A DNA stretch of 64,000 bases from Gammaproteobacteria bacterium (GTDB lineage: Bacteria > Pseudomonadota > Gammaproteobacteria > Steroidobacterales > Steroidobacteraceae). This document shows positions 34,351 to 51,945 of the stretch, one piece after another. Location: contig JANYLM010000143.1 in the NCBI GenBank assembly GCA_025357835.1, forward strand, positions 1-64,000, in the 5' to 3' direction. Within the stretch, counting starts at the first letter, position 1. Every line of letters starts with the position of its first letter. The position numbers and the translations under genes are program-made. The notes below the pieces were generated by a model, which ran no database searches, was not told where the DNA came from, and worked only from the letters and a program-made list of their open reading frames with translations.

Positions 34351-36798
34351 ATGGGGACATCAAAGAATCACCTTGCCTGGATCGGAGCTACCGCATTGAT
34401 TGGATCATTGCGAGTGTTCGCCGCCGACAGCGTGGCGCCAGCCACCGAACTGGAAACGATTACTGTTACCGCACAGAAACGCAGCGAAAGCCTGCAGGAT
34501 GTGCCGCTTTCCATCACCGCCATTGATGCACGCAATTTGCAACAGAAAGCAATATATAGTTTCTTCGACTACGGCGGGAAGGTACCCAATCTAGCGTTCG
34601 CCGATACCGGGGACGGTAGCGGCACGGCACGGACCATATCGATTCGCGGCATCTCGGGCGACGGCACCACCGGGTTCTATATCGACGAGACGCCGGTACC
34701 GGACTCTATCGATCCGCGGATCGTCGACATCCAGCGCATCGAGGTTTTGCGCGGGCCGCAGGGAACTCTATACGGCGCTCGTTCCATGGGCGGCACAGTT
34801 CGCCTTATCACTGAACAGCCAAACCTCAATGACGCCGACGGCAGGCTGCGAATGAGCGGCGGCAAGACATGGAATGCGGTTAGCCCGGATTACGGGGTCG
34901 ACGGCGCCTTCAATGTGCCGCTCATCCAAGACACAATGGCGTTGCGGGCAGTATTATTCTTTCAACACGACGCCGGATTCTTCACGCGTCGCTATTTGGC
35001 GAACCCAGCCGATGCCGCCAATCTGCCGCCGGCCACCAACCCGACCACGCTCGGCAGCTTGCCGACCGCCACTACCGACGGTGTGGGGCGCGTTAATAGT
35101 TACGGCGGCGCAGTGTCACTGGCGATCAAGCCGAACAATGCCTTGATGATCACACCGCGGATTATGTACCAGCAATCGAAAGCGAATGGGCTCTTGTACG
35201 CCGACGGCGGATCGTATCCCGTGCCGGTGCCAGCGACGTTCGTAAACGCGCCGAACATGCATCCGGCCGGCTACATGCAAAACCGGTTCTTCAATCTTCC
35301 GGAGCGCAGCGACGATGCCTGGACTCTGGCTTCGGTGGGAGTCAAATACGAAGCAAGCGCGTTCGCCTTCCTTTCCTCCACATCGTATTTTGACCGGACA
35401 GTTGACGAGACCGAAGACCAAAGTGATTTCATCTGGCAGAACCTTCTGGCGCCGTTCGACGGGATTCCTCTTGGTGACGCGACCAACCCGAACACGCCTG
35501 CATACAAGGCTGTACCAATAGCCACGACCATTCGCGAACTCAAGCAAATTCACCGCTTCGTGCAGGAGTTTCGCTTCACATCGAAACTGTCCGGACCTTG
35601 GGCATACGTCGCCGGAATCTATTTTTCGGATACGCGAGGCCGCGTGCCGTATGCGGGCTACTATCCACCGTCGCTCGCCCCTGGCATCAGTCAGACCGGG
35701 GGATTCGTTGTGCAGGGCATCCCAGGATTGCCGATTCCGGTCAATCCCGCGATCCCCGACGAAATCTTCGGTCAGGACTATCAAACTCGAGTCAGTGAGC
35801 CGGCGATCTACGGAGAGATGTCCTACCATTTCGATGAACAGTGGGCGATGACGGTCGGGCTGCGAGGCTATCGGATCAAAACGCAGACTGGCGGATATCT
35901 GGAAGGAATTGCCTTCGGTGGGCCACGCATCAACGACCCGGATCAATCGTTCACGGAAAGCGGGGTGAATCCCAAGCTCGGACTCGATTACAAGCTGTCC
36001 TCCGATAAGCTGCTGTACGCGCAGATCGCACGTGGCTTCCGGCCCGGCGGCCTCGTCCCCTCGATTCCCGGCAACAGCGTCGTGGACCCGCTCCTCTGCT
36101 TCCAGCAGCTGCAGGCACTCGGCTACATCAGTGCCAGCCAGACGAAGAGTTACAAGTCGGACAGCCTCTGGAACTATGAGCTCGGTGCGAAGACCGCGTG
36201 GGCGGACAACCGCGTCACCCTCGACGGTGCCGTGTTCTTGGTCAAATGGAATAAGATCCAGCAGAGCGTGGCCTTGCCGTGCGGATTTCAATTTCGCGCA
36301 AATTCAGGGGCGGCAGAGATCAAGGGAGCTGAACTCGAGGCGCATGTGCGACCGGCCGCAGGGCTCGACCTGTCCGCCGGTCTCGGCTACCAGCGCGCCC
36401 GCATCACCGAAGCTAGCGCCCTCTTACCGACACTCAAGGTCGGCGACCGGGTCTACCAAGTTCCGGATTGGACCGGCAATGCGTCGGCGACATACACCGT
36501 GCCACTCGCAGAAACACGCAGCTTTGTCAGCACTTTGAGCTACTCCTACACGGGGGACAGCGTCAGTGCCAGTGTCAATGCGAACTTCCCGCGCGTACGG
36601 CCGAGCTACAACATTCTCGATCTGCGGCTTGCCTACGACGTCGGCAGCTATGAACTCGCGCTGATCGGGAAAAATCTCACCAATGTGGAGGCAAACCTGG
36701 GTGACAACCGCTCGCTCGCCGCAGAAACGCTGGGGCGCCCGCGTCTTGTAGTCAATCCGCCGCGAATGATCGGCGCAGAGTTCCGGATGAAGTTCTAG
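34351..36798 (+). CDS. TonB-dependent outer-membrane receptor
   Basis: The 815-residue receptor has a signal peptide (cleavage near residue 25, FA-AD), a TonB box within ETITVTAQKR (about 33-42), a plug with DVPLSITAIDA, ISIRGISGDG and RIEVLRGPQGTLYGARSMGG, and a beta-barrel ending in Phe as expected for Bam recognition. GGAGG lies six bases before ATG. The general pattern resembles receptors of the sphingomonad/Caulobacter type used for organic compounds, so uptake of the substrate of the adjacent convergent catabolic cluster is possible. Siderophore uptake is the alternative; no Fur box was seen upstream. Confidence 0.92.
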   Translation: MGTSKNHLAWIGATALIGSLRVFAADSVAPATELETITVTAQKRSESLQDVPLSITAIDARNLQQKAIYSFFDYGGKVPNLAFADTGDGSGTARTISIRGISGDGTTGFYIDETPVPDSIDPRIVDIQRIEVLRGPQGTLYGARSMGGTVRLITEQPNLNDADGRLRMSGGKTWNAVSPDYGVDGAFNVPLIQDTMALRAVLFFQHDAGFFTRRYLANPADAANLPPATNPTTLGSLPTATTDGVGRVNSYGGAVSLAIKPNNALMITPRIMYQQSKANGLLYADGGSYPVPVPATFVNAPNMHPAGYMQNRFFNLPERSDDAWTLASVGVKYEASAFAFLSSTSYFDRTVDETEDQSDFIWQNLLAPFDGIPLGDATNPNTPAYKAVPIATTIRELKQIHRFVQEFRFTSKLSGPWAYVAGIYFSDTRGRVPYAGYYPPSLAPGISQTGGFVVQGIPGLPIPVNPAIPDEIFGQDYQTRVSEPAIYGEMSYHFDEQWAMTVGLRGYRIKTQTGGYLEGIAFGGPRINDPDQSFTESGVNPKLGLDYKLSSDKLLYAQIARGFRPGGLVPSIPGNSVVDPLLCFQQLQALGYISASQTKSYKSDSLWNYELGAKTAWADNRVTLDGAVFLVKWNKIQQSVALPCGFQFRANSGAAEIKGAELEAHVRPAAGLDLSAGLGYQRARITEASALLPTLKVGDRVYQVPDWTGNASATYTVPLAETRSFVSTLSYSYTGDSVSASVNANFPRVRPSYNILDLRLAYDVGSYELALIGKNLTNVEANLGDNRSLAAETLGRPRLVVNPPRMIGAEFRMKF

Positions 36799-36886: not shown

Positions 36887-38353
36887 TCAAGACCACTTCG
36901 GCGCAATAAGCCGCCTCTTACCGTCGGCTGAACGGCGCACCCCGGATTCATCCAACGCGTCGCGATCCCACAACTCGCAGGTCACCTGGCGGTGCCGCTG
37001 ATCCAGCGCCTCGCAATAATTCGTATATATGCACAGACGCACTTGCGCGCCACGCCCGTTACGCACCTTGGTGAACCAGTCGGGATCCGCAAGCGCCTGG
37101 CGCGCAATCGCGACGATATCCGCCTGACCTGAGGCAAGCACGGCTTCGGCCTGCTCGAAATTATGGATTCCGCCCGCGGCAATCAGCGGAGTATTGCAGT
37201 TCGCCGCGCGCAAGGCAGCGTGGATGCGGGCGGTAGCGCCGAGGTTGCGGCCGAACGGGCCTTGCGCATCGGAAAAGTAGGACGGCATGCACTCGTAGCC
37301 GCTGCGTCCGGTATAGGGATAGGCCGCGGCGCCGACCTTGGGCTGCTGCGCGTCATCGAACTTGCCGCCGCGCGACAGCGACAGAAAATCCATGCCGGCT
37401 TTCGCGAACGCACAGGCGAAGTACTCGGCGTCATCGATCGATCCTCCGCCGCTGACGCACTCTTCGGCCAGAAATCGGCAACCAACGGGGAAACCCGCGC
37501 CAACGTCGGCACGCACCTGCTCATAGACCTCCAACGGGAGCCGCGCGCGTTCCGCGACTCCCCCACCATAGCCGTCGCCGCGTGTGTTGTGCGGCGAAAG
37601 AAAGCACGCCATGGTGTAGGCATGAGCGTAATGCAGTTCGACTCCGTCGAAGCCGGCTTCACGGGCCCGCCTTGCCGCACCACCGAACAGTCCCGGCAGT
37701 TGCCGTGGTAAATCTCGGATATGCCCAAGATGCATGTCCGTGACCCGCTCACGCGCACCGTGATCCAGGGACTCCAGTTCCCTGATATCGAGCACCTTTT
37801 CCAGATCGTTGCGTTCGAGTGACGCCAGCCAGCTGCGAATCTCCGCGTCGTTCGCACCCACCGCGCCCCCTGCTTCGGCTGCTCCGAAGGCGCGACGATG
37901 CCGTTCGGTCAAACCAAGGTACTCCGCAAAATATCGGGCCGGGTCGGGCCGCCGCCGGATGGACAGAAAATCGATGAGCTGAATGAACAGGCGCGTTTCG
38001 CCTTCGCTCGCGCGCCGCACGACCTCAACCAGCTGCTTCAAACCCGGTAGGAAACGCTCGTCTCCAATCCGGAGCAAGGGTCCGCTCGGCACATCGCGAA
38101 TGCCCGTCGCCTCCACCACGATAGCCGCGGGCCGGCCCTGGGCAAAACGCTCGTACCATTCCAGCACGTCTTGGGAAACGAAACCGTCCTCCGTGGCACG
38201 CCACGGCACCATGGCGGGAACCCAGGTTCGGTGGCGCAGCGCAATCGACCCCACCTGAATCGGCGAGAACAGCCGCGACAGGGCGGCCTCCTGGGTGCTG
38301 GGCCAACGCGCCGGCCGCGAATCGTGGCGGATTCGCTCAGGGGGACGCCACAT
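36887..38353 (-). CDS. NADH:flavin oxidoreductase (old yellow enzyme family)
   Basis: FMN TIM-barrel enzyme, 488 residues. LFSPIQVGSIALRHRTWVPA near the start is the OYE FMN strand; FDGVELHYAHAYTMACFLSP holds the conserved His pair region; HNTRGDGYGGG, IAAGGI and DIVAIARQALADPDW complete the FMN site. The C-terminal tail has several Cys (RLCIYTNYCEALDQ and TCELW), but their spacing does not clearly match the 4Fe-4S pattern of dienoyl-CoA reductase. Last gene of the catabolic cluster; ATG at 38353 follows the RidA stop by two bases. It may reduce an enone produced by the fused monooxygenase. Confidence 0.87.
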   Translation of the reverse strand: MWRPPERIRHDSRPARWPSTQEAALSRLFSPIQVGSIALRHRTWVPAMVPWRATEDGFVSQDVLEWYERFAQGRPAAIVVEATGIRDVPSGPLLRIGDERFLPGLKQLVEVVRRASEGETRLFIQLIDFLSIRRRPDPARYFAEYLGLTERHRRAFGAAEAGGAVGANDAEIRSWLASLERNDLEKVLDIRELESLDHGARERVTDMHLGHIRDLPRQLPGLFGGAARRAREAGFDGVELHYAHAYTMACFLSPHNTRGDGYGGGVAERARLPLEVYEQVRADVGAGFPVGCRFLAEECVSGGGSIDDAEYFACAFAKAGMDFLSLSRGGKFDDAQQPKVGAAAYPYTGRSGYECMPSYFSDAQGPFGRNLGATARIHAALRAANCNTPLIAAGGIHNFEQAEAVLASGQADIVAIARQALADPDWFTKVRNGRGAQVRLCIYTNYCEALDQRHRQVTCELWDRDALDESGVRRSADGKRRLIAPKWS

Positions 38354-38355
38354 GG

Positions 38356-38775
38356 TCAATCAGCATCCGGCAATACAGCCGTTGCTTCGATTTCCACCCG
38401 GGCCTCCAGTTCCATGAGCGCCACCACTTGCACCACCGACATGGGTGGATAGTGCTTTCCTATCGTCGCCCGATAGGCAGCGCCGATATCGGCCAACTGC
38501 TCGTAGTATTCGTCGCGGCTGGTTACATACCAGGTCAGGCGCACGATGTGTGCCGGGGTAGCACCCGCATCGGCCAGTATCGCGGCTATATTGAGCAGCG
38601 CCTGACGCACCTGATCCGCCAAGCGGCTGCTGGGGAATTTGCCCTCCGCGTCCCAGCCGATCTGGCCGGCCACGAATATCTGCAAGCCGCGGGCCGCCAT
38701 GCCGTTGCTGTAACCCTTGGGCCGCGGCCACCCCGCCGGTTGCAGAATGCGGGGCAGTTTATTGTCCTTGGTCAT
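38356..38775 (-). CDS. RidA/YjgF family (imine or enamine hydrolase type)
   Basis: The 139 residues follow the RidA fold: [51 protein letters not shown], and [26 protein letters not shown]. RidA proteins hydrolyse enamine/imine intermediates, releasing ammonia; subgroups occur in catabolic operons. The catalytic Arg of true RidA lies before the final Glu; here the equivalent position reads [10 protein letters not shown], so this may be a non-canonical subgroup. The ATG overlaps the acyl-CoA dehydrogenase stop (ATGA). Confidence 0.85.
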
Positions 38776-39974
38776 GCCGACTCCGTTGGGGCGAGTAGCT
38801 CGCGAGCGATAATGAGCTTCTGAACCTCGGTCGCTCCCTCATAAATACGCAGCGCGCGTACGTCTCGATATAGACGCTCGACGACTTCGCCCTTCATCAC
38901 TCCGCGGGCGCCGAACATCTGCACCGCTCGATCGACGACTCGCTGCGCGGTCTCAGTCGCCTGCATCTTGGCCATGGCCGCCTCCTTTGTGACACGCTCC
39001 CCGCTGTCGCGCAGCCAGGCAGCGCGATAGGTAAGCAGGCGGGCCGCGTCCACTTCGGTCGCCATGTCGGCCAGCGTAGCTTGAGTCAATTGAAAATCGG
39101 CAAGGTTGCGGCCGAACATGTGCCGCGACCGCGCCTGGGCGATGGAATCATCCAGCGCGCGCTGCGCGAAGCCCAGCGCAGCCGCGGCCACCGAGGTGCG
39201 AAAGATATCCAAGGTACGCATCGCGATCTTGAACCCCTCGCCCTCGGCGCCCAGCCGATTCGTCGCGGGTATTCGGCACTCGTAAAACGCCAAGGATCCC
39301 ATGGGATGTGGTGCCATGATGTCGATGCGGCCGGCGATCGACAGCCCCGGAGCGTCTGCATCGACGACGAAGGCAGTGATGCCGGCGGCGGCCGTGGTGC
39401 CGTCGGCTCGGGTCTGCGCCGGCTGCGTGCGCGCGAAAACGCAGTAGAAATCGGCGATGCCGCCGTTCGAGATCCAAGTCTTCGCGCCATCGAGCACATA
39501 GTGTTCGCCGTCGCGCCGCGCGCGGCACTGCATCCCCGCGACATCGGATCCCGCCTCCGCTTCCGACAGAGCGAATGCCGCCAGTGCCTCGCCGCGCGCG
39601 ACTCGCGGCAGGTACCTCGCTTGCAATTGCGGCGATCCCGCCAGCGTGAGCGCGCCGCTGCCGAGGCCCTGCATGGCGAATGCAAAATCCGCCAATCCGT
39701 CGAAACCGGCCAGGGTTTCGCGGATGATGGCGATGCAGCGGACGTCGAAGTCTGCCGCGGCGCCTCCGTGTTCCGCACGCACGCAGTGACGGAGCATTCC
39801 GGCCGCGCCTAGCTTTCTGACGACCGCGATGCAGTGCGCATCGACCGATTCGCGCGTCTCGCCGTGCGCCCCACCGAGATTTTGCTCGCACCAGGCCACG
39901 AGACTGGCATGAAGATCGCGATGGCGCGCTTCGAAGAAGGGCCAGCTCAAAAACGCCGGGGCCGCCTTCGCCAT
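38772..39974 (-). CDS. Acyl-CoA dehydrogenase
   Basis: FAD enzyme introducing an alpha-beta double bond into an acyl-CoA, 400 residues. [19 protein letters not shown] binds [22 protein letters not shown], the middle [21 protein letters not shown], and the C-terminal [20 protein letters not shown], then [11 protein letters not shown], which carries the Glu found as catalytic base in short- and medium-chain enzymes. It overlaps the hydratase stop by one base (TGATG) and the RidA start by four. In context it probably acts on a cyclic or ring-opened CoA ester. Confidence 0.9.
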
Positions 39975-40783
39975 CAGTTGCCCTCGAAGACCGGTTGGGT
40001 CTTATCCGCAAACGCGCGGTATGCGCGCCGAAAGTCTTCGGTTTGCATGCACAGAGCCTGCGCCTGCGCCTCGGCTTCTATGGCCGTCTCGATGGACAAA
40101 TTCCACTCCTGATGCAGCATGCGCTTGGTCATCGCATGCGCGAACGTCGGCCCTTTAGCAAGCGATGCCGCGAATTCCACCGCCTCGGCGAGCATGCGGG
40201 GCTGCGCAACCACGCGATTGAAAAAACCCCACGCCAGACCTTCCTCGGCGCTCATCGAGCGGCCGGTGTACAGCAGCTCGGCCGCGCGCCCCTGCCCTAT
40301 GATTCGCGGCAAAATGGCGCAGGCGCCCATATCGCAGCCTGCCAATCCAACGCGGACGAATAGAAATGCGGTGCGCGCCTCGGCAGTGGCGAACCGAAAG
40401 TCGGAGGCCATGGCGATAATGGCGCCCGCCCCCGCACAGATCCCTTCCACGCCGGCCACGATGGGCTGCGGACATTCGCGCATGGACAGGACTAGGTCGC
40501 CTGTCAGGCGAGTGAAATCGAGCAATCCCTGCGGGGCCATTCGGGTCAGCGGCCCGATGATGTCGTGTACGTCGCCGCCGGAGCAGAAATTACCCCCTGC
40601 GCCGGAAATCACAATCGCTTTCACGGCGTCTTCGGCGCGCAAACCGCGAAATAGATCTCGCAGTTCTGCGTAGGATTCAAAGGTCAGCGGGTTCTTGCGC
40701 TCCGGCCGATTCAAGGTGATGACGCCGACCCTCTCCTCGACCCGCCACAGGAAATTCTCGGCAACGTAGTTTGCGAATCTCAT
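39974..40783 (-). CDS. Enoyl-CoA hydratase/isomerase of the aryl-CoA cluster
   Basis: Crotonase-family protein, 269 residues: [35 protein letters not shown] and [22 protein letters not shown] supply the two oxyanion-hole segments, and [21 protein letters not shown] covers the active-site loop. The pattern resembles ring-hydrolysing or hydrating crotonases of aromatic degradation as much as fatty-acid enzymes. The ATG overlaps the stop of the MarR gene (ATGA). Confidence 0.88.
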
Positions 40784-41313
40784 AGGGAATTCTCCACGCC
40801 CGACCGCGTTCGTTGTCGCGATTGAATCTTCAAATCCTGCAACAGCCCGGCGAGCTGTTGCTTGCTCTTGGACGGCAGACCTGCGAATAAATCGATAATC
40901 CAGCGTTCGTGTTCGGCAGCCATTCTTTTAAAGAGGCGCTGACCGCTTGGCGTGAGCTTCACTCGAAAAGCGCGGCGGTCCTGTGCATCGATGACGCGCG
41001 CTACCAAGCCTTCCTTCTCCAGCAAGTCGGTAATGCCGGTTACATTACCGCCCGTGACCATCAGGCGCTTGGACAGCTCGCCCATTTTAAGTCCCTCGTG
41101 GCATCGCTCCAGCTGCGCCATGAGATCGAAACGAGGCAGGGTCGTAGCGAATTCGCCTTGTAAGCGCTGCCGGATGTGGTTTTCAATCAGTGTCGAGCAA
41201 CTCAGCAGCCGCAGCCACAGCCGCAACGAGTCATGATGGTCCTCACGCACTCGCGTCTCGCTGTCGGACGGCGGCTCGAGCGCCTTGGAGCGGGGCGTCA
41301 CTTTAGCCGCCAT
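40780..41313 (-). CDS. MarR-family regulator inside the catabolic cluster
   Basis: Winged helix dimer, 177 residues. After a charged N-terminus come [17 protein letters not shown], the [23 protein letters not shown], and the wing with [18 protein letters not shown] containing the DRR signature. ATG at 41313 overlaps the SDR stop (TGATG). MarR proteins in aryl-CoA operons often respond to the CoA thioester, as CouR does to p-coumaroyl-CoA; here this is inference. The gene is cotranscribed with its probable targets. Confidence 0.9.
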
Positions 41314-42086
41314 CACATGACCTCGCCGCCGGCTACGGCGATGCTCTGCCCGGTAATGCTCGCGCTGCTGCGCAGGCACAGCCAGCGAACCGTATCGGCC
41401 ACTTCCTCGGGGGTCACCAAGCGGCCTTGCGGATTGTGGGACAGCAACTCCGCAAGGGCTTCCGATTCGCCGCGGCCCGTCTTGGCGCTGATGTTGGCAA
41501 CGGCTGTCCGCACCAGATCCGTATCCGCGTAGCCCGGGCACACCGCGTTCACGGTCACATTGCGGCGCGCCGTTTCGAGCGCCACGGCGCGGGTCAGTCC
41601 GATGACTCCATGCTTCGACGCACAGTAGGCGCTGACATAGGGGTAGCCCACCAGGCCGGCAGTGCTGGCCACGTTCACGATGCGTCCGAACCCGGCCTTC
41701 AACATATCGGGAAGGCACTCGCGCATGCAATGAAAGGTGCCCGTCAGGTTCACCGAGAGCATGGAATGCCACAGCGCATCGCTGGTGGCGCCCAGCGGGC
41801 CACTCAGCGCCTGACCTGCGTTGTTGACCAGCACGGTGATCGGCCCAATGGCCGCGCGCGCCGCGGCTACCGCCGTGCGCACCGATTCCGCATCGGCCAC
41901 GTCCGCGACCTGACAGCTGCGGCGAACAGGCTCTAGCTCGGCGGCGACGGCCTCCAGATCCCGACGAGAACGGCCCACCAGCGTGACATCGGCGCCTGCG
42001 CCGGCGAGGTTGCGCACGATGGCAGCGCCTATGCCGCGGCCGGCGCCGGTCACCAGGGCATGCAATCCGGTGAGAAGAGCGGTCAT
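41313..42086 (-). CDS. SDR-family oxidoreductase (3-hydroxyacyl-CoA dehydrogenase-like)
   Basis: Classical short-chain dehydrogenase, 257 residues. TGAGRGIGAAIVRNLA binds NAD(P); NNAG near 88; the catalytic Ser in NVASTAG, and Tyr-Lys in YVSAYCASKHG. NAVCPGYADTDL and the C-terminal SITGQSIAVAGG are standard. Placed between the fused monooxygenase and a MarR/hydratase pair, it most likely oxidises a beta-hydroxyacyl-CoA or reduces a ring ketone. Confidence 0.9.
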   Translation of the reverse strand: MTALLTGLHALVTGAGRGIGAAIVRNLAGAGADVTLVGRSRRDLEAVAAELEPVRRSCQVADVADAESVRTAVAAARAAIGPITVLVNNAGQALSGPLGATSDALWHSMLSVNLTGTFHCMRECLPDMLKAGFGRIVNVASTAGLVGYPYVSAYCASKHGVIGLTRAVALETARRNVTVNAVCPGYADTDLVRTAVANISAKTGRGESEALAELLSHNPQGRLVTPEEVADTVRWLCLRSSASITGQSIAVAGGEVM

Positions 42087-42093
42087 GTGATTC

Positions 42094-44388
42094 TCAGACA
42101 GGGCCGACGGCAGCGTCCGCCTGCGCCGCCCGCTCCATATTGCGTTCGAGCTGCGACTTGCCTGACAGATAGGGGTCTGGCCACACCTGCTCTTGAAATT
42201 TCTGTTCCGCCGCGGCGCTCAAGGTCCACGCTGGATTCGACAAGTGCGGCCGCGCCAGCGCGCAAAGATCCGCCCGCCCCGCTGCGATGATGGAATTCAC
42301 GTGATCCGCCTCGAATATATTGCCCACCGCAATGGTTGGGATACCGATCTCGTTGCGAACCTTATCGGCAAAGGGCGTTTGCCACATGCGGCCATACACC
42401 GGTTGCTGTTCCGCCACGGTTTGACCCGTCGATACATCGAGCACGTCCGCGCCGGCGTGCTTGAGTGCGGCGGCGATGGCCAACAAGTCCTTCTCCGACA
42501 GACCGCCCTGGGCCCAGTCACAGGCGGAAATTCTTGCCGACAGCGCACGCTCCCTCGGCCAAACGGCACGTACCGCGGAGAAAACCTCAAGAGGAAATCG
42601 TAATCTTGCCGCGATGTCGCCGCCGAATTCATCCTGACGCTGATTGGTCAGCGGCGACAGAAAACTTCCGAGCAAGTACCCGTGCGCCAGATGCAGCTCC
42701 AGCATGTCGAAGCCCGCGTCGAGAGCGAGCCGCGCGCACCTGACAAAATCGTCGCGGACCTCATCCATGTCCGAGCGCGTCATCGCCTGCGGAATCTGAC
42801 TGACGCCTGCCAAGTAGGGAATAGCCGAGGGAGCCAGGAGCGGCCAATTTCCCGAGGCGAGCGGGTAATCCATGCGCTCCCAGCCAAGTTGCGTCGAACC
42901 CTTGCGGCCGGAATGACCTATCTGCAGGCAAAACTTGGCGGCCGACTGAGCATGAACGAATTCGACGATGCGCCGCCACGCGTCGCGCTGCGCCTCATTC
43001 CAGAGGCCGGTGCAGCCGGGAGTGATGCGCCCCGTCGCCGAAACACAAGTCATTTCAGTGAACAGCAGACCCGCGCCGCCGACGGCCCGCGCGCCGTAGT
43101 GCATCAGGTGCCAGTCGCCGGGAATGCCATCCGCCGCCTGGTACTGCGCCATGGGGGAGACGACCACTCGATTCGCAAGTTCCATGTTCGCAAGCCGGAA
43201 CGGCAGAAACATGGGCGGCCGCGCCGCATCGTATACGCCACTGCGCCGTGCCAGCCAGCGCTCGTAACCTTCCACGAAACCGGAATCTCGCAACTTAAGA
43301 TTGGCGTGACCGATGCGCTGGCTACCCGTCAGCAACGCATACGCGAATTGTCGTGGTTCGAGGTTTGAATACCGTGCGACATTCTCGAACCACTCCATCC
43401 GATTGCGCGCCGCGCTCTGCAGCTTGAGGGCTTCCAAACTCCGCTCCGCCTGATAGATTTGCAGCCCTGCTTGAACGTCGCTGGCACTCGCCACCCGGCT
43501 GACCAGAGACATGGCGTCTTCCATCGCCAGTTTGGTGCCGGACCCGATGCCGAAGTGCGCCGTATGCGCCGCATCGCCGATCAATACGATATTGCGGTGA
43601 TGCCATTGCGCACACAGCACGCGATTGAAATTCAACCAAGCAGAGCCGCGCAAATGGTTTGCGTTGCTCAAAAGCTGCTGTCCATCCAAATACTTGGCAA
43701 ATAGAGCCTCGCAGAATGCGATCGATCGCTCGGTGGTGTAGCCGTCGAGGCCGTGCGCGCGCCAGGTCTCCTCGCGCGTCTCGACAATGACCGTGGAAAC
43801 ATCCTCGCTAAACTGATAGGCATGGATCTGGAACCAACCGTGCTCGGTCTTTTCGAACGCGAAGGTAAACGCAGCGAATTTCTGGCGCGTGCCCAGCCAG
43901 ATGAAGCGACACTTACCGACGGCGATATCCGGCTGGAACACCTCCGCATGACGGGTTCGGACCTTGCTGTTCACGCCATCCGAGGCGACGATGAGGTCCG
44001 CATCCGCGAGCGGCGTCAGTTCGTTTATTTCAGCTTGAAAGTGCTGCTCCACACCCAATGAGCAAGCTCGTTCCTGAAAGATATTGAGCAAGCGGCGCCT
44101 GCCGATCCCGCAGAAGCCATGACCGCCAGAGCGAATCGTCTCGCCCCGAAAATGCACGTCGATGTCATCCCAGTGGTGGAAATCCCCGACAATGGCATCA
44201 TGCGACTGTGGATCCGCCGCTCGAAAACCCGACATGGTCTGATCCGAAAATACCACGCCCCAACCGAAGGTATCGTCGGGCCGGTTGCGCTCGTAAACCT
44301 CGACCTTTGCGTCGGGCAAGGCTTTCTTCAGCAGGATTGCGCCGAAAAGACCCGCAGGACCGCCGCCTATGAACACCGCTCGTTTCAT
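42094..44388 (-). CDS. Fused flavin monooxygenase/old-yellow-enzyme acting on an aryl-CoA (2-aminobenzoyl-CoA or salicylyl-CoA type)
   Basis: The 764-residue protein joins two flavoenzymes. Residues 1 to about 380 are a PHBH-type FAD hydroxylase: [15 protein letters not shown] at 8-22, [10 protein letters not shown], and [19 protein letters not shown]. Residues from about 390 are an old yellow enzyme: [55 protein letters not shown] and [10 protein letters not shown]. This fusion is known from 2-aminobenzoyl-CoA monooxygenase/reductase of Azoarcus evansii, which hydroxylates and dearomatises the ring, and from proteins annotated as bifunctional salicylyl-CoA 5-hydroxylase. The substrate cannot be fixed from sequence alone. 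It heads the downstream unit and has its own promoter candidate. Confidence 0.88.
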
Positions 44389-44394
44389 CGTTCA

Positions 44395-44423
44395 ACAATA
44401 GATCGAGATACTTTAGATGTCAA
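44395..44423 (-). promoter_or_regulatory. Sigma-70-like promoter of the fused monooxygenase gene
   Basis: On the minus strand a perfect -35 TTGACA (44423-44418) is followed after exactly 17 bases by TATTGT (44400-44395). Only six bases separate the -10 from the ATG at 44388, so the transcript would be leaderless or nearly so; no SD is present. It lies in the 76-base gap after iorB. Confidence 0.6.
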
Positions 44424-44464
44424 CTATATAAGCCGGCCCGATACGGTGCAATCCGTGGACTATG

Positions 44465-45979
44465 TCAGGCAGCCGTCAACACCCTTGACAAAGCAATCCC
44501 CTGATCGTCCGCCAACGCCGCGACTCTCAACGCGCGAACTCGATCGGCCGCGTCCGGACGGCCTTGCCGGCCCTGAACGTCGGCCAAGATCGCGTCGAAG
44601 CTCAGGGTGCCGCGCTCATGCGTCTCGCCATAGCCCTTGACCAGTTGTTGACAATCGGCGATCTCGACGGCCAGGGCGTAATCTTCTGGCGCCAGCCGCC
44701 CGATGAGTTGCAGCCAGTGGACGATATGCATCTGTTCTTGGGAATACCGAAGAGTCTTGCGGCGCCACCGGCGTAGCCCGGCGAGCCAGTAGAGCTGCAA
44801 AAACCCGCCGATGCTGGAAGTTGCGATCTGCCGGCCGCCCGTGAGGCGGGTTATCCAGCGCCGCGGGGTTTTCGAGCGAAGAATCCATGTGCCCAACCCG
44901 ACGGGGAGCGTGCCGCAAATTTCCTCCACTCGTGGTTTCATGAATTCGGTGACTTGCACCAACTGTCCGGTGGACGGCCCAACCTCTTGCAGCACTCGCT
45001 TCGAGCGTGCCGTGCGAATCTTCAGGTCAGCGACGCGGATCGTGTCCTCGAAGGACATCCACAGCGCCAGCCCGCGCGCCACCGACTCAGTCAACGCGAC
45101 GCCTGCCGAACCGACATGCTCCAACGCCGCCACTGAGTCGAGCCTGTCCAGATACAGACTCGCATAAGCGACGTCCTGGTAGTCGATCATTCGCCGAACG
45201 CCTTGGCGCGCGAGATCCTGTGCGGCCGCCGGTATGCGCGCCCGTATTCGTTCTTTCAGAAAAGCAGGAATGAATGCGCGAGTGGCCGTGCGCTCCGTGG
45301 GTGATACGGTAGGCGGTGCAGCGGCGGCTGATGACTCTGCGGCCGCGCGCCGCGCGGCCTCGAACGCCCGAGTGCTCGATGCGGCCTCGATGCCGCTGGT
45401 TCGAATCGCCTCAACATAGTGCTCCACGGCGAAGGGCAGTGCTCCGGAACCGCACAGCGCGCCGAGCATGGCGGCGCTGATCACACTGCCGTTGGCCTCC
45501 GCCATGGCCTGCATGTCGAACTCGATATACCGCTTCGCCTGTTCGCGTGCCAGCGCGCGCACTTGGCTCGAATCGGCGCGGCCGTCCCCCATGTGCGATT
45601 TCTCTTGAATGGCGTAGATTCGATGCGAGGACGCGATGAGCGTGGTGCGCGCGGTAACCAAGCCGCGCTGCATGGCGCGGCCTGCTTCCATGATTTCCGA
45701 AGCGATCACCACGTCCACATCGCCGGGATTCGGCATCAGCGCGAATATGGGACGACTTTTATCGGCCGGCAATCCGGCCAGCGGAAAGAATTCCAGGTAG
45801 TAGATGGTGGCCCCGGTTCTTTGAGCTACGCCGGGAACGGAAGTCGCCTGCGCGAGATAGCCAGCCCGCCGAGCGACATGGATCAGCCAATCCGATACCA
45901 CGCCGCCACCCTGCCCGCCCAGTGCGGCGATGGTCAGGGTTATGGGCCTGGTGATTGCGGCAATCGGCAGGGCGCTCAC
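44465..45979 (-). CDS. iorB: Indolepyruvate oxidoreductase beta-type subunit with long C-terminal extension
   Basis: The first 190 residues form the gamma-type domain of 2-oxoacid:ferredoxin oxidoreductases: LTIAALGGQGGGVVSDWLI and ATSVPGVAQRTGATIYYLEF, then MPNPGDVDVVIASEIMEAGR. The remaining 300 residues match the extra domain found in the long IOR-type enzymes of proteobacteria (DUF6537 region, assigned by pattern). The 504 residues start at GTG 45979, which overlaps the iorA stop (GTGA). With IorA it would convert an aryl 2-oxoacid and CoA to an aryl-acyl-CoA, CO2 and reduced ferredoxin. Confidence 0.85.
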   Translation of the reverse strand: MSALPIAAITRPITLTIAALGGQGGGVVSDWLIHVARRAGYLAQATSVPGVAQRTGATIYYLEFFPLAGLPADKSRPIFALMPNPGDVDVVIASEIMEAGRAMQRGLVTARTTLIASSHRIYAIQEKSHMGDGRADSSQVRALAREQAKRYIEFDMQAMAEANGSVISAAMLGALCGSGALPFAVEHYVEAIRTSGIEAASSTRAFEAARRAAAESSAAAAPPTVSPTERTATRAFIPAFLKERIRARIPAAAQDLARQGVRRMIDYQDVAYASLYLDRLDSVAALEHVGSAGVALTESVARGLALWMSFEDTIRVADLKIRTARSKRVLQEVGPSTGQLVQVTEFMKPRVEEICGTLPVGLGTWILRSKTPRRWITRLTGGRQIATSSIGGFLQLYWLAGLRRWRRKTLRYSQEQMHIVHWLQLIGRLAPEDYALAVEIADCQQLVKGYGETHERGTLSFDAILADVQGRQGRPDAADRVRALRVAALADDQGIALSRVLTAA

Positions 45980-48150
45980 AACGAGGGCTCCGCCGCGATG
46001 CGTGCGAGCCGGCGGTCGAAGCGGCGTTGCAGGAACTCGATGACGGTGGTGCGAAAGCGAAATTTCAGGCGGTCCCATGCGCTGGGATTGGTGATGACAT
46101 CCGCCCTGTAAAATGACGGACACAGCACGGCGGCATGGGCCACTTCACCGCAAACGCCGCATCCCACACAGCTGTTGTCGACGTGCGCGATGGGATCGCG
46201 CCGCAGCGGATCCGGATTGGCCTTAATGGTCAACGAGGGACACCCCGAAAGTCTGATACATGAATGATCCCCGGTACACACGTCGGGGTCGATGCCGAAA
46301 CGCTGGCGCACCACGCGCTTGCCTTCCTGGGCCATGCGTTTCAGAACGGGCGCCACGCGCCTCTTTCGATTCAACTCGCACTCGCCTTCCGCGATAATGA
46401 CTTTGGGCCCCTTGTACGCTGTGGTGAGCGCCTCACGCAACGCACTGATACCCTCCTGCATCTTGTACGTATGCACGGTGCGCACCCACTCCACGCCCAC
46501 GCCGCGCACCGCCTTCTCGATCGGATTCCTGCCCTTGCGGTTCTTTAAATCCGCCCGTGAGGACGGAATGTATTGGCCACCGGTGGCTGCGGCGTAGCCG
46601 TTGTCCACTATGACAGTGACCGAATCGTGTTTGTTGAACACCGAATTTCCTATGCCGCTGGTCAGACCGTTATGCCAGAAGCCGCCGTCTCCCATGATGG
46701 ATATGGAGCGCTTGCCCCCCTGACCGCCGCTCAGGGCGGCGCCGCTCGCCGACCCCAATCCATAGCCCATGATGCTAGCGCCCGTGTTGAAGGGCGCCAA
46801 TGTAGCGAAGGAGTGGCAGCCGATGTCGGCACTCACATGTACTGCGCCGAATTCCTTCTGCACGATTTTCATCGACGAGAAGAAGGGCCTTTCCGGACAG
46901 CCTGTGCACAGGCCCGGCGGCCGCATCGGTACCGCCTTGCGCAACTCCTCGATGGGCAGCAGCGGTCGCTCGGTAAACACGCCGATAGGCGAACTCAGCG
47001 GCGCGCTTGGCGCCAGGGCGCTTGCTGCCCATTCCGCAAGAAAGCTCTTGATCCCGGCGCTGACGACGGCGCCGGTGTATTCCCCCGCCATGGGCAAGGG
47101 ACCCTTGCCGACGACCCGCGCCTGAATATCCGCCTTGCGCAGAAACTGATTCACGCTCTGTTCGATGTATTCGGGCTGACCTTCCTCGACGATCAGCAAT
47201 GCCTTCTTGCCCGCAGCGAACCGAGTGAACTCCTCCGGGACGAGGGGGTAGGTGACATTCAGCACATACAAGGGAATCCGCGACTTCCCGAACACATCCG
47301 CCAGCCCCAGCATTTCCAGGGACCGCATTACAGTGTTGTAGAGTCCGCCCTGCATGACAATGCCGATGTCTTCGAGATCGCCCGCACGCATCTCGTTCAA
47401 ATGGTTCTCGACGATGAAACGCACGGCGGCGGGCCATCGAGTGACCACTTTTTCCTGCTCCTGGGCATAGGTTGCCGGCGGCAGAATGATCCGCGCCGCC
47501 GACCGTTGTGGATTCTCCAATGCGTCCTGAATGCTGAACTTGGGGGCGACGTTGTTCTTGGCGACGAAGGAGCCATGCATGTGGCAGGCGCGAATGCGCA
47601 ACATCAACATAACCGGGGTTTGGCTCGCCTCGGACAGTTCGAAGCCACGCTCCACCATGTCGACGATGGTGCTGGTATCGGGACGCGGATCGAGCAGCCA
47701 TATCTGCGATTTCATGGCAAAGGCGTGCGTGCGTTCCTGCATGATGCTGGCGCCTTCGCCGTAGTCCTCGCCGACTATCATCAGCGCGCCGCCCAGTACG
47801 CCTGCCGAGGCAAGATTGGACAATGCATCGGAGGCCACATTGGTGCCTACCGTCGACTTCCAGGTGACGGCGCCCCGCAAAGGATAGTTGACCGAGGCGG
47901 CCAGCATGGCAGCCGCGCCAGCCTCGGAGGCACTCGATTCGAAATGCACGCCGAGATCATCCAGTATCTCGCGGGCGTCGGCCAGGACGTCCATCAAGTG
48001 CGAGACGGGAGCACCCTGATAGCCGCCGACATAGGACACGCCTGCCTGCAGCAGGGCCTTCGTGACGGCGAGGATGGCCTCGCCTTCAAAGACCTCGCCC
48101 GCTCTGAGCCGCAGCGTTTGGACTTCCCGCGCGAACGACCGCTCTGCCAT
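45976..48150 (-). CDS. iorA: Indolepyruvate:ferredoxin oxidoreductase alpha-type subunit
   Basis: The 724-residue thiamine-diphosphate iron-sulfur subunit. The N-terminal third has the pyruvate-oxidoreductase fold (ALLQAGVSYVGGYQGAPVSH, AAAMLAASVNYPLRGAV). The TPP site is GDGGFWHNGLTSGIGN with the following VIVDNGYAAATGGQ. The C-terminus has two Cys groups, CTGDHSCIRLSGCPSL and CVGCGVCGEVAHAAVLC, for 4Fe-4S clusters. ATG at 48150 has AAGG six bases upstream. No ferredoxin gene is visible in the window. The substrate may be indolepyruvate, phenylpyruvate or an arylglyoxylate. Confidence 0.9.
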   Translation of the reverse strand: MAERSFAREVQTLRLRAGEVFEGEAILAVTKALLQAGVSYVGGYQGAPVSHLMDVLADAREILDDLGVHFESSASEAGAAAMLAASVNYPLRGAVTWKSTVGTNVASDALSNLASAGVLGGALMIVGEDYGEGASIMQERTHAFAMKSQIWLLDPRPDTSTIVDMVERGFELSEASQTPVMLMLRIRACHMHGSFVAKNNVAPKFSIQDALENPQRSAARIILPPATYAQEQEKVVTRWPAAVRFIVENHLNEMRAGDLEDIGIVMQGGLYNTVMRSLEMLGLADVFGKSRIPLYVLNVTYPLVPEEFTRFAAGKKALLIVEEGQPEYIEQSVNQFLRKADIQARVVGKGPLPMAGEYTGAVVSAGIKSFLAEWAASALAPSAPLSSPIGVFTERPLLPIEELRKAVPMRPPGLCTGCPERPFFSSMKIVQKEFGAVHVSADIGCHSFATLAPFNTGASIMGYGLGSASGAALSGGQGGKRSISIMGDGGFWHNGLTSGIGNSVFNKHDSVTVIVDNGYAAATGGQYIPSSRADLKNRKGRNPIEKAVRGVGVEWVRTVHTYKMQEGISALREALTTAYKGPKVIIAEGECELNRKRRVAPVLKRMAQEGKRVVRQRFGIDPDVCTGDHSCIRLSGCPSLTIKANPDPLRRDPIAHVDNSCVGCGVCGEVAHAAVLCPSFYRADVITNPSAWDRLKFRFRTTVIEFLQRRFDRRLARIAAEPSL

Positions 48151-48179
48151 GATTAGCCTTGAGTGAACTCTACTGACCT

Positions 48180-48217
48180 GCAATACTATGCCGGTTACGT
48201 GATTTTGCAACTATTGC
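48180..48217. promoter_or_regulatory. Inverted repeat between iorA and the divergent MarR gene
   Basis: GCAATA at 48180-48185 and TATTGC at 48212-48217 form a dyad across the 86-base divergent gap; TTTTGCAA lies inside it. This is a reasonable MarR operator candidate controlling both genes, by position only. Confidence 0.3.
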
Positions 48218-48236
48218 CATCTAAAGGATCCGCCGC

Positions 48237-48749
48237 GTGGCCTTATCTCCCTCCGCAATGCCGCGTCGCGGAAACACGTCGACACTTGCGGACGCCAAAC
48301 GCCGCGGCGACCCCCAATTCGCCGATTTCCGGCTGGCCGACTCACCGCTCTATCTCATCGTGCGCACGGCAGGCCGCTACGCGCAGGAAATGGAAAACGC
48401 CCTGGCCGCGTCGGGCATGGATCTCCTAAGCTGGCGCGCCCTGATGATAGTCAACGAGGTAAGTCCCAGCAGCGTCAGTGAAATCGCCGAGCGCTCGGTG
48501 ACGCGGCTGTCGACCATGACGCGCGTCGTGCAGCGCCTGGAGAAGAAGACTCTGGTGAGCCTCTCGAAACGCCCTTCGGACGCTCGAGTCACCGAAGTCA
48601 TTTTGACGCCGCTCGGTAAACGCTGCGTCGCAAAAGAACGCCGCACGGCCGGCGCTGCCTACCATCGCGCCATGCGGGGTTTTTCGGCTGCCGATATCGC
48701 CGCCTTGAACGGCTGCATGCGGCGTATCTTCGCAAATTTCTCGACCTAG
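48237..48749 (+). CDS. MarR-family regulator divergent from iorAB
   Basis: The 170-residue protein shows the MarR winged helix: GMDLLSWRALMIVNEVSPSS, the HTH VSEIAERSVTRLSTMTRVVQ, and the wing SKRPSDARVTEVILTPLG. GTG at 48237 follows AAGGA by eight bases; an ATG at 48258 is possible. Divergent placement makes it the likely regulator of iorA-iorB. It differs from the MarR at 40.8 kb. Confidence 0.88.
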   Translation: MALSPSAMPRRGNTSTLADAKRRGDPQFADFRLADSPLYLIVRTAGRYAQEMENALAASGMDLLSWRALMIVNEVSPSSVSEIAERSVTRLSTMTRVVQRLEKKTLVSLSKRPSDARVTEVILTPLGKRCVAKERRTAGAAYHRAMRGFSAADIAALNGCMRRIFANFST

Positions 48750-49380: not shown

Positions 49381-51945
49381 ATGAACATTACCGCGCGGAT
49401 GAAGATGGCTCACAAACTGGCGGTGATCGTCATCGTCATGCTACTGCCATTGACTTACGTCAGCGTCGAGTATGCCGCCGGCTTGTGGGCGCGAATCAAC
49501 GAGCATGCGCAGGCCGACGATGGACTGCACTACTTCGAGGGGCTCAAGGAGGCCGGTCGCGCACTGGCGGCCCACGCGTCATTCACCGCCACCATACTCG
49601 CCGGTGAAGCCAATACCCCTTACTTCGACAAGAAGATTCAGGAGGCAGCGACTAGACTCGACGCAAGCATTGCGCTGCAGGATAAGTCGGAGGACAAGTA
49701 CGGCGCGGAAGGCTCGCCGGAACGCGCACTGTGGCATGAGGTCAAAGCCGATTGGGCGAGCCTATCTCTTGATTGGCCGAAGCTTTCTCCGGACGCCTCC
49801 GCGCAACGCCATGATTCACTTTCCGCGAAGCTCACGAAACTGGTGCGCCTGATCGGTGAAACGCATCATCTGGATCGGGACGGCGACCTGCAGCAGTACT
49901 ATCTACAAGACCTGGCGGTGCTGGAAATTCCGCGCTTGTTCTTCGAATTCGGAGCAATGCGTGCGGCCGCGGCGCCAGTAGCCGCGCAGATGTTGTCCGT
50001 CACCCAAGAACAGGAAGCCAGGATCAACGCGATTTCCGCGAACATTCGCTTCTTGATGGACAACGCGCACTGGAAACTCGATTCACTGAATGAGTGGGCT
50101 GCGCGAGCCAAGGACGCGGCATTCGTCGTTCAGATGACCCAAGCCAGCGATGCATTCCACGCCAGCGAGAGCGCGTTCGACGCGTATCAGCACTGGGTTG
50201 CCTCGAACATAACGACGCGCCGGCCGGTCGGCGTCGCCTCGCAAGAGGTGATGGAGCAAGGCACGCTGTTCGAAACCAAGTTGGTAGCGCTGCACGATCT
50301 TTTGATGGATCAAGTCCGTGCCCGCTCGGAACAACGGCTTGCCGCCGAGCGGTTTGAGCGCAATCTGGCGCTTGCGTTCGTCGCCGCCATGGTGATCGCC
50401 GCAATCCTGTTGGCCGGCCATTTTTCCCGCAGTCTGACCCGTTCGATGCGCCGCGCGGTGTCGACATTTGCCGCTATCGAGGCCGGCCACTACGAGAATA
50501 AGATTACAGTGGACAGTGCGGACGAAGCGGGCCAGGTGCTACGCTCGCTCGACAAGATGCAAACGACGCTGCGAATCCGCATTGAAGCCGATAGAGGCAT
50601 TCTCGCAGAAAACACTCGCGTTCGTCAGGCACTGGACAATGCCGGCACCATCGTGCTGGTGGTGGACGAGAAACACAAGATCGTCTACGCAAACGAGACG
50701 GCCAAAACTACGTTCGCACTACTGCAGCAGGACATTCAGCGCGAGCTGGTGCAGTTCTCCGCTGCCGCCTTGGTCGGCGCTTCCATCGATATATTCAAGC
50801 CGGTGCCTTTTTTGGACAGGGTTGCGCTCGACGGATTGCGCGACTCTCAGACTAAAACCCTCACCGTCGGCGGACATACCCTGGTATTGAACGCCAGCCC
50901 CATTGTGGGCATCGCAGGCGACCGGCTCGGCACGGTACTGGAGTGGCGCGATCGCACCAACGGGGTGGCCATGGAGAACGAAGTCAGGTCCGTTGTCGAC
51001 TCCGCTCTGCACGGCGACCTGCAGGCGCGCTTGCCGGTTGAAGGGAAGAGCGGCTTTCACCTCAATCTTGCGGCGGGCTTGAACGAGCTGCTCGACAATC
51101 TCTCCGAGGTGGTGAGGTCGATCAAATATGCCGTGGTTGAGATGCGGGGGAGTGCCGATGAAATTTCATCCGGCAATGCGGAATTGTCGGCGCGCACGGA
51201 AGCCCAATCCTCAGCCTTGGAGGAGACGGGGGCGGCGCTGGAAGAAATGACCGCGACGGTGCGTAACAATGCGGAAAACGCTGGGCATGCGAACGAACTT
51301 GCCGCGACGGCGCGCGATCGCGCCGAGAAGGGCGGTGTCGTCGTCTCCACGGCGATTACCGCCATGCAGCAGATCAATGCCTCGAGCCGCAAGATCGCGG
51401 ACATTATCGGGGTGATAGACGAGATTGCTTTCCAAACCAATTTGCTGGCCTTGAACGCGGCCGTGGAAGCGGCGCGCGCCGGGGAACAGGGACGCGGCTT
51501 CGCCGTCGTCGCATCCGAGGTCCGCAACCTCGCGGGTCGATCGGCGCAAGCCGCCAAGGAAATAAAGGCACTGATCAACGACAGCGTAACCAAGGTCGGC
51601 GAAGGCGCGAAGCTGGTGGATCAATCGGGGGAAATGCTGCAGGAAATCGTCGGCGCCGCACAGAATGTGAGCAAGATAGTGGCGGACATGGCATCCGCCA
51701 CCCGCGAGCAGAGCGCCGGAATCAGCGAGGTCAATAGTGCGATCGCAAAAATTGACGAAATGACCGGCAAGAACGCGGTGCTGGTCCAGGAGAACGCCAC
51801 CGCCGCAACCGCGCTCCTGACTCAAACAAGCGGACTGAGCGATGCAATGAACAAGTACCAAATCGGCGACGTTCGCGCGGCGCAGGTCAAACAATCTGCA
51901 CAGCCGCAGGCAGTGCGCCGACAGGCATCCGGCTCACGGCGTTGA
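49381..51945 (+). CDS. Methyl-accepting chemotaxis protein
   Basis: Transmembrane chemoreceptor, 854 residues. TM1 is at about 12-32, a helical periplasmic sensor domain of about 300 residues follows, and TM2 is at about 330-350. A HAMP linker comes next, then a PAS-like segment (around 415-520, [20 protein letters not shown]). The signalling hairpin has its tip near 679: [20 protein letters not shown], then [20 protein letters not shown]. No C-terminal CheR-binding pentapeptide is present. No cheA, cheW or flagellar genes are nearby. Confidence 0.94.

Follow-up and report, generated by a model that had tools for sequence, protein, structure and literature searches.

A probable isatin and auxin degradation operon in which an IorAB-type oxidoreductase may supply 2-aminobenzoyl-CoA to a dearomatising flavoenzyme without a CoA ligase

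We examined a 64,000-nucleotide stretch of a Steroidobacteraceae genome (the window, to which all coordinates refer; the contig carrying it is labelled C58) that holds an operon joining iorA and iorB to the gene of a fused monooxygenase/old yellow enzyme, here called ABM. This operon probably encodes the lower half of an aerobic isatin and auxin pathway, in which IorAB would turn isatinate into 2-aminobenzoyl-coenzyme A (CoA) for ABM. The first-pass annotation had proposed IorAB as the source of this CoA thioester and had linked auxin or indole breakdown to the dearomatising enzyme. Both proposals gain support from the co-occurrence of IorA with ABM, from isatin hydrolase genes beside IorA or ABM in relatives, from the genome's own isatin hydrolase and iad genes and from the auxin-induced iorAB of Bradyrhizobium (PMC3788728; here and below, published work is cited from excerpts of the articles). 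We also consider it rather likely, with slightly less assurance, that IorAB/IadAB is an undescribed isatinate (2-aminophenylglyoxylate):acceptor oxidoreductase (CoA-acylating) which, with isatin hydrolase, ABM and a Rid lineage specialised for the cyclic enamine-CoA, makes up a widespread aerobic route that carries auxin and other indoles into central metabolism without a ligase; anthranilate reported free in iad strains would then be a side product or branch. The parts are known; the replacement of the abm-pathway ligase by an iad-type IorAB, and the reaction of the latter, were not found described in the literature searched.

The steps of the proposed pathway would run as follows. IadDE, IadJ, IadFGH and isatin hydrolase, encoded elsewhere in the genome, would convert indole-3-acetate through isatin to isatinate. 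IorAB, an enzyme of thiamine pyrophosphate (TPP) and iron-sulfur type, would oxidatively decarboxylate isatinate with CoA to 2-aminobenzoyl-CoA and CO2, saving the ATP of a ligase. ABM would hydroxylate and reduce this thioester to the cyclic enamine 2-amino-5-oxocyclohex-1-ene-carbonyl-CoA, from which the Rid protein would release ammonium by hydrolysis, and a short-chain dehydrogenase (SDR), a crotonase, an acyl-CoA dehydrogenase and a second old yellow enzyme would carry out ring opening and a beta-oxidation-like degradation. Gene content, co-occurrence, neighbourhoods and the presence of upper genes are observed; we infer which substrate IorAB uses, what follows ABM and that the window genome's iad homologues act as in Variovorax. 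If the pathway is correct, the lower part of the iad pathway would be closed, there would be a way for the carbon and nitrogen of auxin to enter central metabolism while bypassing free anthranilate, and an arylglyoxylate branch would be assigned within a large family now annotated as indolepyruvate oxidoreductase. The iadA/iadB pair, long seen and used as a marker of auxin-degrading bacteria, would gain a testable role.

Open reading frame (ORF) listing and family scans of ten proteins gave, down the minus strand from 48150 to 36887, the order IorA, IorB, ABM, SDR, MarR, crotonase, acyl-CoA dehydrogenase, Rid and second old yellow enzyme. The features are:

48237..48749, + strand: MarR-family regulator, divergent from iorA (Pfam MarR 41.7 bits; the true start may be later)
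48151..48236, no strand: iorA/MarR intergenic region, candidate operator/promoter from the layout only
45976..48150, - strand: IorA-type subunit, TPP domain and C-terminal iron-sulfur (ferredoxin-like) domain, proposed isatinate oxidoreductase alpha (TIGR03336 290 bits, cut-off 650.9)
44465..45979, - strand: IorB-type subunit, POR domain and DUF6537, proposed isatinate oxidoreductase beta (PRK08312 647 bits, cut-off 348; DUF6537 162.5 bits)
42094..44388, - strand: ABM, fused flavin adenine dinucleotide (FAD) monooxygenase/old yellow enzyme, putative 2-aminobenzoyl-CoA (or salicylyl-CoA) monooxygenase-reductase (PRK08255 1242.4 bits, cut-off 1078, residues 3-759)
41313..42086, - strand: SDR (adh_short 202.6 bits)
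40780..41313, - strand: second MarR-family regulator, within the operon (Pfam MarR 39.8 bits; ATG at 41313; 177 amino acids)
39974..40783, - strand: crotonase-family protein, candidate hydratase or ring-opening hydrolase (PRK08258 468.8 bits, cut-off 330)
38772..39974, - strand: acyl-CoA dehydrogenase (Acyl-CoA_dh_1 174 bits)
38356..38775, - strand: Rid-family protein, candidate enamine-CoA hydrolase (Ribonuc_L-PSP 80 bits; TIGR00004 57.3 bits, cut-off 106.25)
36887..38353, - strand: second old yellow enzyme (Oxidored_FMN 140.9 bits; start inferred from one relative)

Given the assigned starts, adjacent operon genes overlap or are separated by no more than 76 bases; the IorA start was fixed by alignment with relatives, and the GTG start of iorB overlaps the iorA stop (shared GTGA). 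The tight minus-strand set named by the first-pass annotation was borne out, every gene being at its place, and two MarR regulators belong to the set in addition to the genes listed there. Chance grouping is excluded because the gene set recurs in other genomes. In Variovorax the product of iadR, a MarR gene, binds between iadR and iadA (PMC9613470, Conway et al. 2022); in the window, no inverted repeat with arms of at least 8 bases at most 40 apart, as an operator beside iorA might show, was found in 48120-48330.

We surveyed the distribution of IorA and ABM in samples of 296 genomes of the window's order and 299 of its phylum. In the order sample ABM (E ≤ 1e-100) was found in 49 genomes and IorA in 39; both occurred in 38, IorA only in one (G233) and ABM only in 11. 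ABM was therefore present in 38 of 39 genomes with IorA and in 11 of 257 without it (Fisher p 8e-37). The phylum sample gave ABM in 42 genomes, IorA in 22 and both in 20, with IorA only in G484 and G550, that is 20 of 22 genomes with IorA against 22 of 277 without (Fisher p 1.4e-17); neither p value is corrected for shared ancestry. We also took as named IorA loci the best 80 of 583 relatives and put 50 of these to a genome-wide ABM search. All matched except L195 (49/50), a Terriglobia metagenome-assembled genome, in which an isatin-hydrolase-like gene adjoins iorA despite the lack of ABM. IorA nearly implies ABM, and ABM can occur without IorA. Among the 38 order genomes with both, the two genes lie within 20 kb of each other in 21, on separate contigs in 16, and 727 kb apart on the single contig of G060; the last two cases indicate that the link between them is not merely positional. 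The first-pass annotation had called for a check of co-occurrence beyond close relatives, and it does extend to Alphaproteobacteria, Betaproteobacteria and Actinomycetota.

Isatin hydrolase is a recurrent neighbour of this pair. Genes of the PF04199 cyclase family numbered 132 across 70 genomes, and 25 genomes with a cyclase on the ABM or IorA contig were picked by eye. The cyclase lies in the gap between ABM and IorA in 10 order genomes and within 1.7 kb of either in 11 more; in three others it is 6 to 11 kb away, and the last, G189, has ABM only and gives no distance. Among the named loci with at least 15 kb of sequence, 31 of 54 include a cyclase that shares at least 45% identity with reference cyclases from annotated plasmids. 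A quick tree of 113 IorA sequences places the window in a 20-row clade (support 96), and 13 of the 14 other rows of this clade with ABM in the retrieved stretch have isatin hydrolase there too.

The window genome's own isatin hydrolase is on contig C26. Ten cluster cyclases were taken for comparison with it (an eleventh, from G054, was not recovered), of which that of G122 was in the wrong frame and gave no match; among the nine comparable, the C26 protein is 76-81% identical to those of four relatives and 53-58% identical to five others. Against solved proteins it scores 345 to 274 bits with isatin hydrolases A and B and 28 bits with kynurenine formamidases, and we reject the latter assignment on these scores. 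The other two cyclases of the genome are more distant.

Homologues of the upper auxin genes are found on contig C51. Using reference iad genes from Azospirillum and Shinella plasmids, named by gene order and annotation, we identified homologues of iadG (61% identity), iadF (50%), iadD (60%), iadE (42%) and iadJ (58%), as well as a fragment of iadH (53%) cut by the contig end. The C51 Rieske protein, 60% identical to the Rieske alpha subunit of the Azospirillum cluster, scores 618 bits against the solved structure 9o71 and 609 against 7yls/8h2t, compared with 136 for the next class, biphenyl dioxygenase. We infer that these entries are IadD; their numbers did not turn up in the PLoS Biology paper's main text. 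Compared with the iad-linked IorA proteins of L121 and L127, the window IorA shows 63% and 62% identity, respectively. In a survey of 70 genomes at E ≤ 1e-70, an iadD homologue was present in 23 of 39 genomes with IorA (one of them, G075, a weak match at 38%), in 2 of 11 with ABM only and in none of 20 with neither, all 20 from the window's own family.

In some genomes the two halves of the proposed pathway stand together. Within 20 kb, L077 (G090) carries homologues of iadE, D and J, isatin hydrolase, iadH, G and F, the second old yellow enzyme, ABM, MarR, Rid, acyl-CoA dehydrogenase, crotonase, SDR, iorB and iorA. The L214 cluster resembles it in holding iad genes, IorAB and ABM together. 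In L121 (Azospirillum thermophilum) a single same-strand run comprises iorAB, a reductase, both Rieske subunits (alpha and beta), an AMP-binding gene, ABM between two SDR genes, crotonase, acyl-CoA dehydrogenase, a thioesterase and Rid.

Family tests place the ABM and Rid proteins as follows. ABM passes the PRK08255 cut-off at full length with both its FAD monooxygenase and old yellow enzyme domains, and its halves match solved structures, the N-terminal half being VioD-like and the C-terminal half an old yellow enzyme. The Rid protein lies outside canonical RidA, since it scores below the TIGR00004 cut-off and its PAR-motif arginine is replaced. That position is methionine in the window protein and in 17 of 18 sampled cluster members, and isoleucine in one; the arginine is present in two of three aligned solved Rid proteins and absent from the best match, 5v4f. 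Given the role of this arginine, methionine would fit a substrate other than a 2-imino acid, and the cluster Rid proteins may be a lineage specialised for a CoA-bound enamine. Together with the isatin hydrolase context, the Rid protein would favour an amino substrate for ABM (2-aminobenzoyl-CoA) over salicylyl-CoA.

Published work supplies the ABM-type chemistry, the auxin induction of Bradyrhizobium iorAB and the isatin and isatinic acid intermediates of an iad strain. The ABM product is the enamine 2-amino-5-oxocyclohex-1-ene-carbonyl-CoA, and the CoA ester of anthranilate-grown cells might be cyclohexanedione-carboxyl-CoA (PMC3534580, PMC4539516). The abm pathway of Azoarcus evansii, compared here by description, uses the same kind of flavoenzyme, with beta-oxidation-type steps said to follow, but has a 2-aminobenzoate-CoA ligase where the window operon is headed by iorA-iorB (PMC4539516, PMC3534580, PMC8388817). 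In Bradyrhizobium japonicum given 1 mM auxin, iorA rose 30.7-fold and iorB 7.64-fold (genes matched by published name), and the authors called both candidates for auxin breakdown without defining a reaction (PMC3788728). In the iad locus, iadA and iadB are the iorA and iorB homologues and serve as exclusive markers of iad-like operons, and isatin, isatinic acid and anthranilate were detected in an auxin-fed iad strain (PMC9613470). The window genome shares with the iad locus of Variovorax, Achromobacter and Bradyrhizobium these two genes, iadD, E, F, G, J and part of H; the described locus ends at anthranilate (PMC9613470), whereas the window has iorAB in one operon with the ABM module and the upper genes of its genome are on C51 and C26. 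The anaerobic iaa indoleacetate pathway of Aromatoleum has the same CoA-ester end point, 2-aminobenzoyl-CoA, but by its description a distinct gene set (PMC9613470). A 2025 preprint assigns steps to iadC-K2 and none to iadAB (PMC12633357), and no reaction for iadAB in the auxin pathway was found in the excerpts of the literature searched, these sources included (PMC9613470, PMC12633357, PMC3788728). Isatinate was not found proposed as an IorAB substrate in the titles and abstract openings of that literature, outside which most subscription papers lie.

An ordinary indolepyruvate (or phenylpyruvate) oxidoreductase of amino acid breakdown, with ABM fed by anthranilate through a ligase encoded elsewhere, is the alternative that fares best, although we regard it as unlikely. 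The family names do read indolepyruvate oxidoreductase, and aminotransferase genes lie near iorAB in L120 and L123. The window IorA shares with the indolepyruvate:ferredoxin oxidoreductase of anaerobes a TPP domain, an iron-sulfur domain and a two-subunit make-up; however, it falls far below the alpha-subunit equivalog cut-off (290 against 650.9 bits), and IorB, which carries DUF6537, falls below that of TIGR03334 (37.7 against 205.8 bits) while passing the looser PRK08312 subfamily. Seven cysteines at IorA 645-697, in the C-terminal iron-sulfur domain, are invariant among eight aligned sequences, and no solved structural relative of IorA was found at E 0.001. The frequent partners of IorA are isatin hydrolase, iad genes and ABM, and the window operon has no aminotransferase. 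Oxidative decarboxylation of an arylglyoxylate to an aryl-CoA, as proposed for IorAB, is the reaction of phenylglyoxylate:NAD oxidoreductase, a multi-subunit enzyme of another lineage.

The ligase half of this alternative draws on the classical supply of ABM by 2-aminobenzoate-CoA ligase (PMC3534580, PMC4539516) and on a review that describes a 2-aminobenzoyl-CoA cluster as essential to an indole-degrading Cupriavidus for breaking down anthranilate, and that treats isatin's part in indole degradation as disputed (PMC6221969). No growth on anthranilate was seen in Cupriavidus metallidurans, whose annotation includes abm genes (PMC8879955). The window genome encodes 14 AMP-binding genes, yet their best match to the ABM-adjacent ligase type is just 34%. 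The first-pass annotation had seen no CoA ligase and had asked whether a better-fitting one lay just outside the window. The operon indeed contains no CoA ligase or other AMP-binding gene, and none is nearby: the nearest AMP-binding gene found on the contig (C58:76837-77991) is about 29 kb away and 24% identical to a reference aryl-CoA ligase, on which grounds we reject a nearby ligase as the thioester source.

Genomes with and without IorA were also compared for such ligases. Eleven order genomes have ABM without IorA, and in 4 of the 9 whose ABM regions were fetched (L048, L055, L064, L096) a ligase of the ABM-adjacent type lies near ABM; these genes are 45-53% identical to the Tsukamurella ABM-adjacent ligase, and the three that were scanned fall slightly short of the benzoate-CoA ligase family cut-off (348-367 against 375 bits). 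This type occurs in none of the sixteen fetched stretches holding ABM and IorA together. The contrast for a ligase near ABM, 4/9 against 1/38 (p 0.003), is suggestive, having been counted after looking and mixing genomes retrieved on only the ABM side or only the IorA side. IorAB looks like an alternative or additional thioester source beside the ligase, the two routes not being exclusive. As a separate observation, the ABM cluster of G170 holds a benzoate-CoA-ligase-like match (53%), and at L064:2107-2652 in the same genome the iorA match among ORFs of at least 60 amino acids is only 141 residues long, near an isatin-hydrolase-like gene.

Several observations weigh against isatinate as the substrate of IorAB, or against the breadth of the proposed route. 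Genome context alone cannot name a substrate. IorA without ABM occurs in G233, G484, G550 and the named locus L195. A benzoate-CoA-ligase-like gene also accompanies IorA in L102, on the Tsukamurella plasmid L122 and at five of the 80 named loci (L160, L165, L174, L192, L225, of which L165 and L174 also have ABM). Retrieved flanks show isatin hydrolase, ABM or iad genes in only 45 of the 80 named loci (38 of the 54 with at least 15 kb), under context thresholds chosen after inspecting these neighbourhoods; annotation by ORF and BLAST misses genes in long overlapping frames, such as the G122 cyclase, and neighbour counts are lower bounds. In the window genome the isatin hydrolase (C26) and iad genes (C51) are on contigs other than that of iorAB (C58), and the 20 kb of C51 that was inspected yielded no recognisable homologue of iadC. 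Within the window's genus iadD occurs in just one of nine genomes, the window's own, and 16 of the 39 IorA genomes of the order sample lack it, so that auxin looks like one feed of the isatin module and not the sole one. In seven of those sixteen an isatin hydrolase gene nevertheless sits between ABM and IorA, suggesting other sources of isatin, for example indole oxidation. Finally, Variovorax HS33, in which genes 77-53 are deleted, including gene 72 (iadA), produced anthranilate at restored levels once given back only iadC-K2 (PMC12633357), and IorAB is therefore not needed for anthranilate in Variovorax. Anthranilate in iad strains may be a side product or branch of the pathway. Alkaline peroxide classically oxidises isatin to anthranilate.

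The IorA family may also take more than one substrate, a further point on this side, because a sister clade adjoins a hydroxyacid oxidase and an enolase-like gene. The IorA of L125 (Variovorax boronicumulans plasmid) belongs to a separate 8-row clade (support 100), and L125:13998-24574 holds iorAB with a hydroxyacid oxidase (closest, though below cut-off, to the curated L-lactate dehydrogenase family), an enolase-like gene of mandelate-racemase type and an ABC transporter, perhaps a route of the sister clade from mandelate to benzoyl-CoA. It is quite improbable that the window IorAB likewise converts phenylglyoxylate (benzoylformate, from mandelate) to benzoyl-CoA, with the ABM homologue acting on benzoyl- or salicylyl-CoA. 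The ABM family name does include salicylyl-CoA 5-hydroxylase, but a Rid protein and isatin hydrolase would be ill-suited to a nitrogen-free substrate, and L125 lies in another clade, for which reason we reject mandelate/phenylglyoxylate for the window IorAB, though not for the family.

Least probable of all is that IorAB acts on isatinate and a thioesterase hydrolyses the product to anthranilate, ABM serving another route: thioesterase-like genes adjoin iorAB in L120, L123 and L127 and anthranilate was seen in auxin-fed Variovorax (PMC9613470), but no thioesterase is among the window operon proteins, and ABM lies in the same gene run as IorAB and accompanies IorA in all but one of the 39 order genomes.

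A second branch of iorAB loci (Caballeronia L120, Tsukamurella L122, Ruegeria L123 and Shinella L127) combines iorAB with cupin, fumarylacetoacetate-hydrolase-family, carbon-nitrogen hydrolase and thioesterase-type genes; the L120 and L122 stretches also contain ABM. The L123 cupin, the only one scanned, most resembles gentisate and 5-aminosalicylate dioxygenases but scores below the cut-off of each, and that of L122 is much shorter. This branch may be a second way down, via 5-hydroxyanthranilate. An Asp/Glu racemase gene is present in three of its four loci. In a Comamonadaceae-rich group (L156, L157, L159, L161, L170, L203) the thresholds applied reveal neither isatin hydrolase nor iad genes nor ABM beside iorAB; all six genomes match ABM genome-wide, in two pieces in L156 and L157.

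In the window the operon is flanked by a TonB-dependent receptor and a chemoreceptor (34351-36798 and 49381-51945), and on C51 the iadF homologue has genes for a TonB plug protein and an amino acid permease in its vicinity; these may be uptake or sensing partners.

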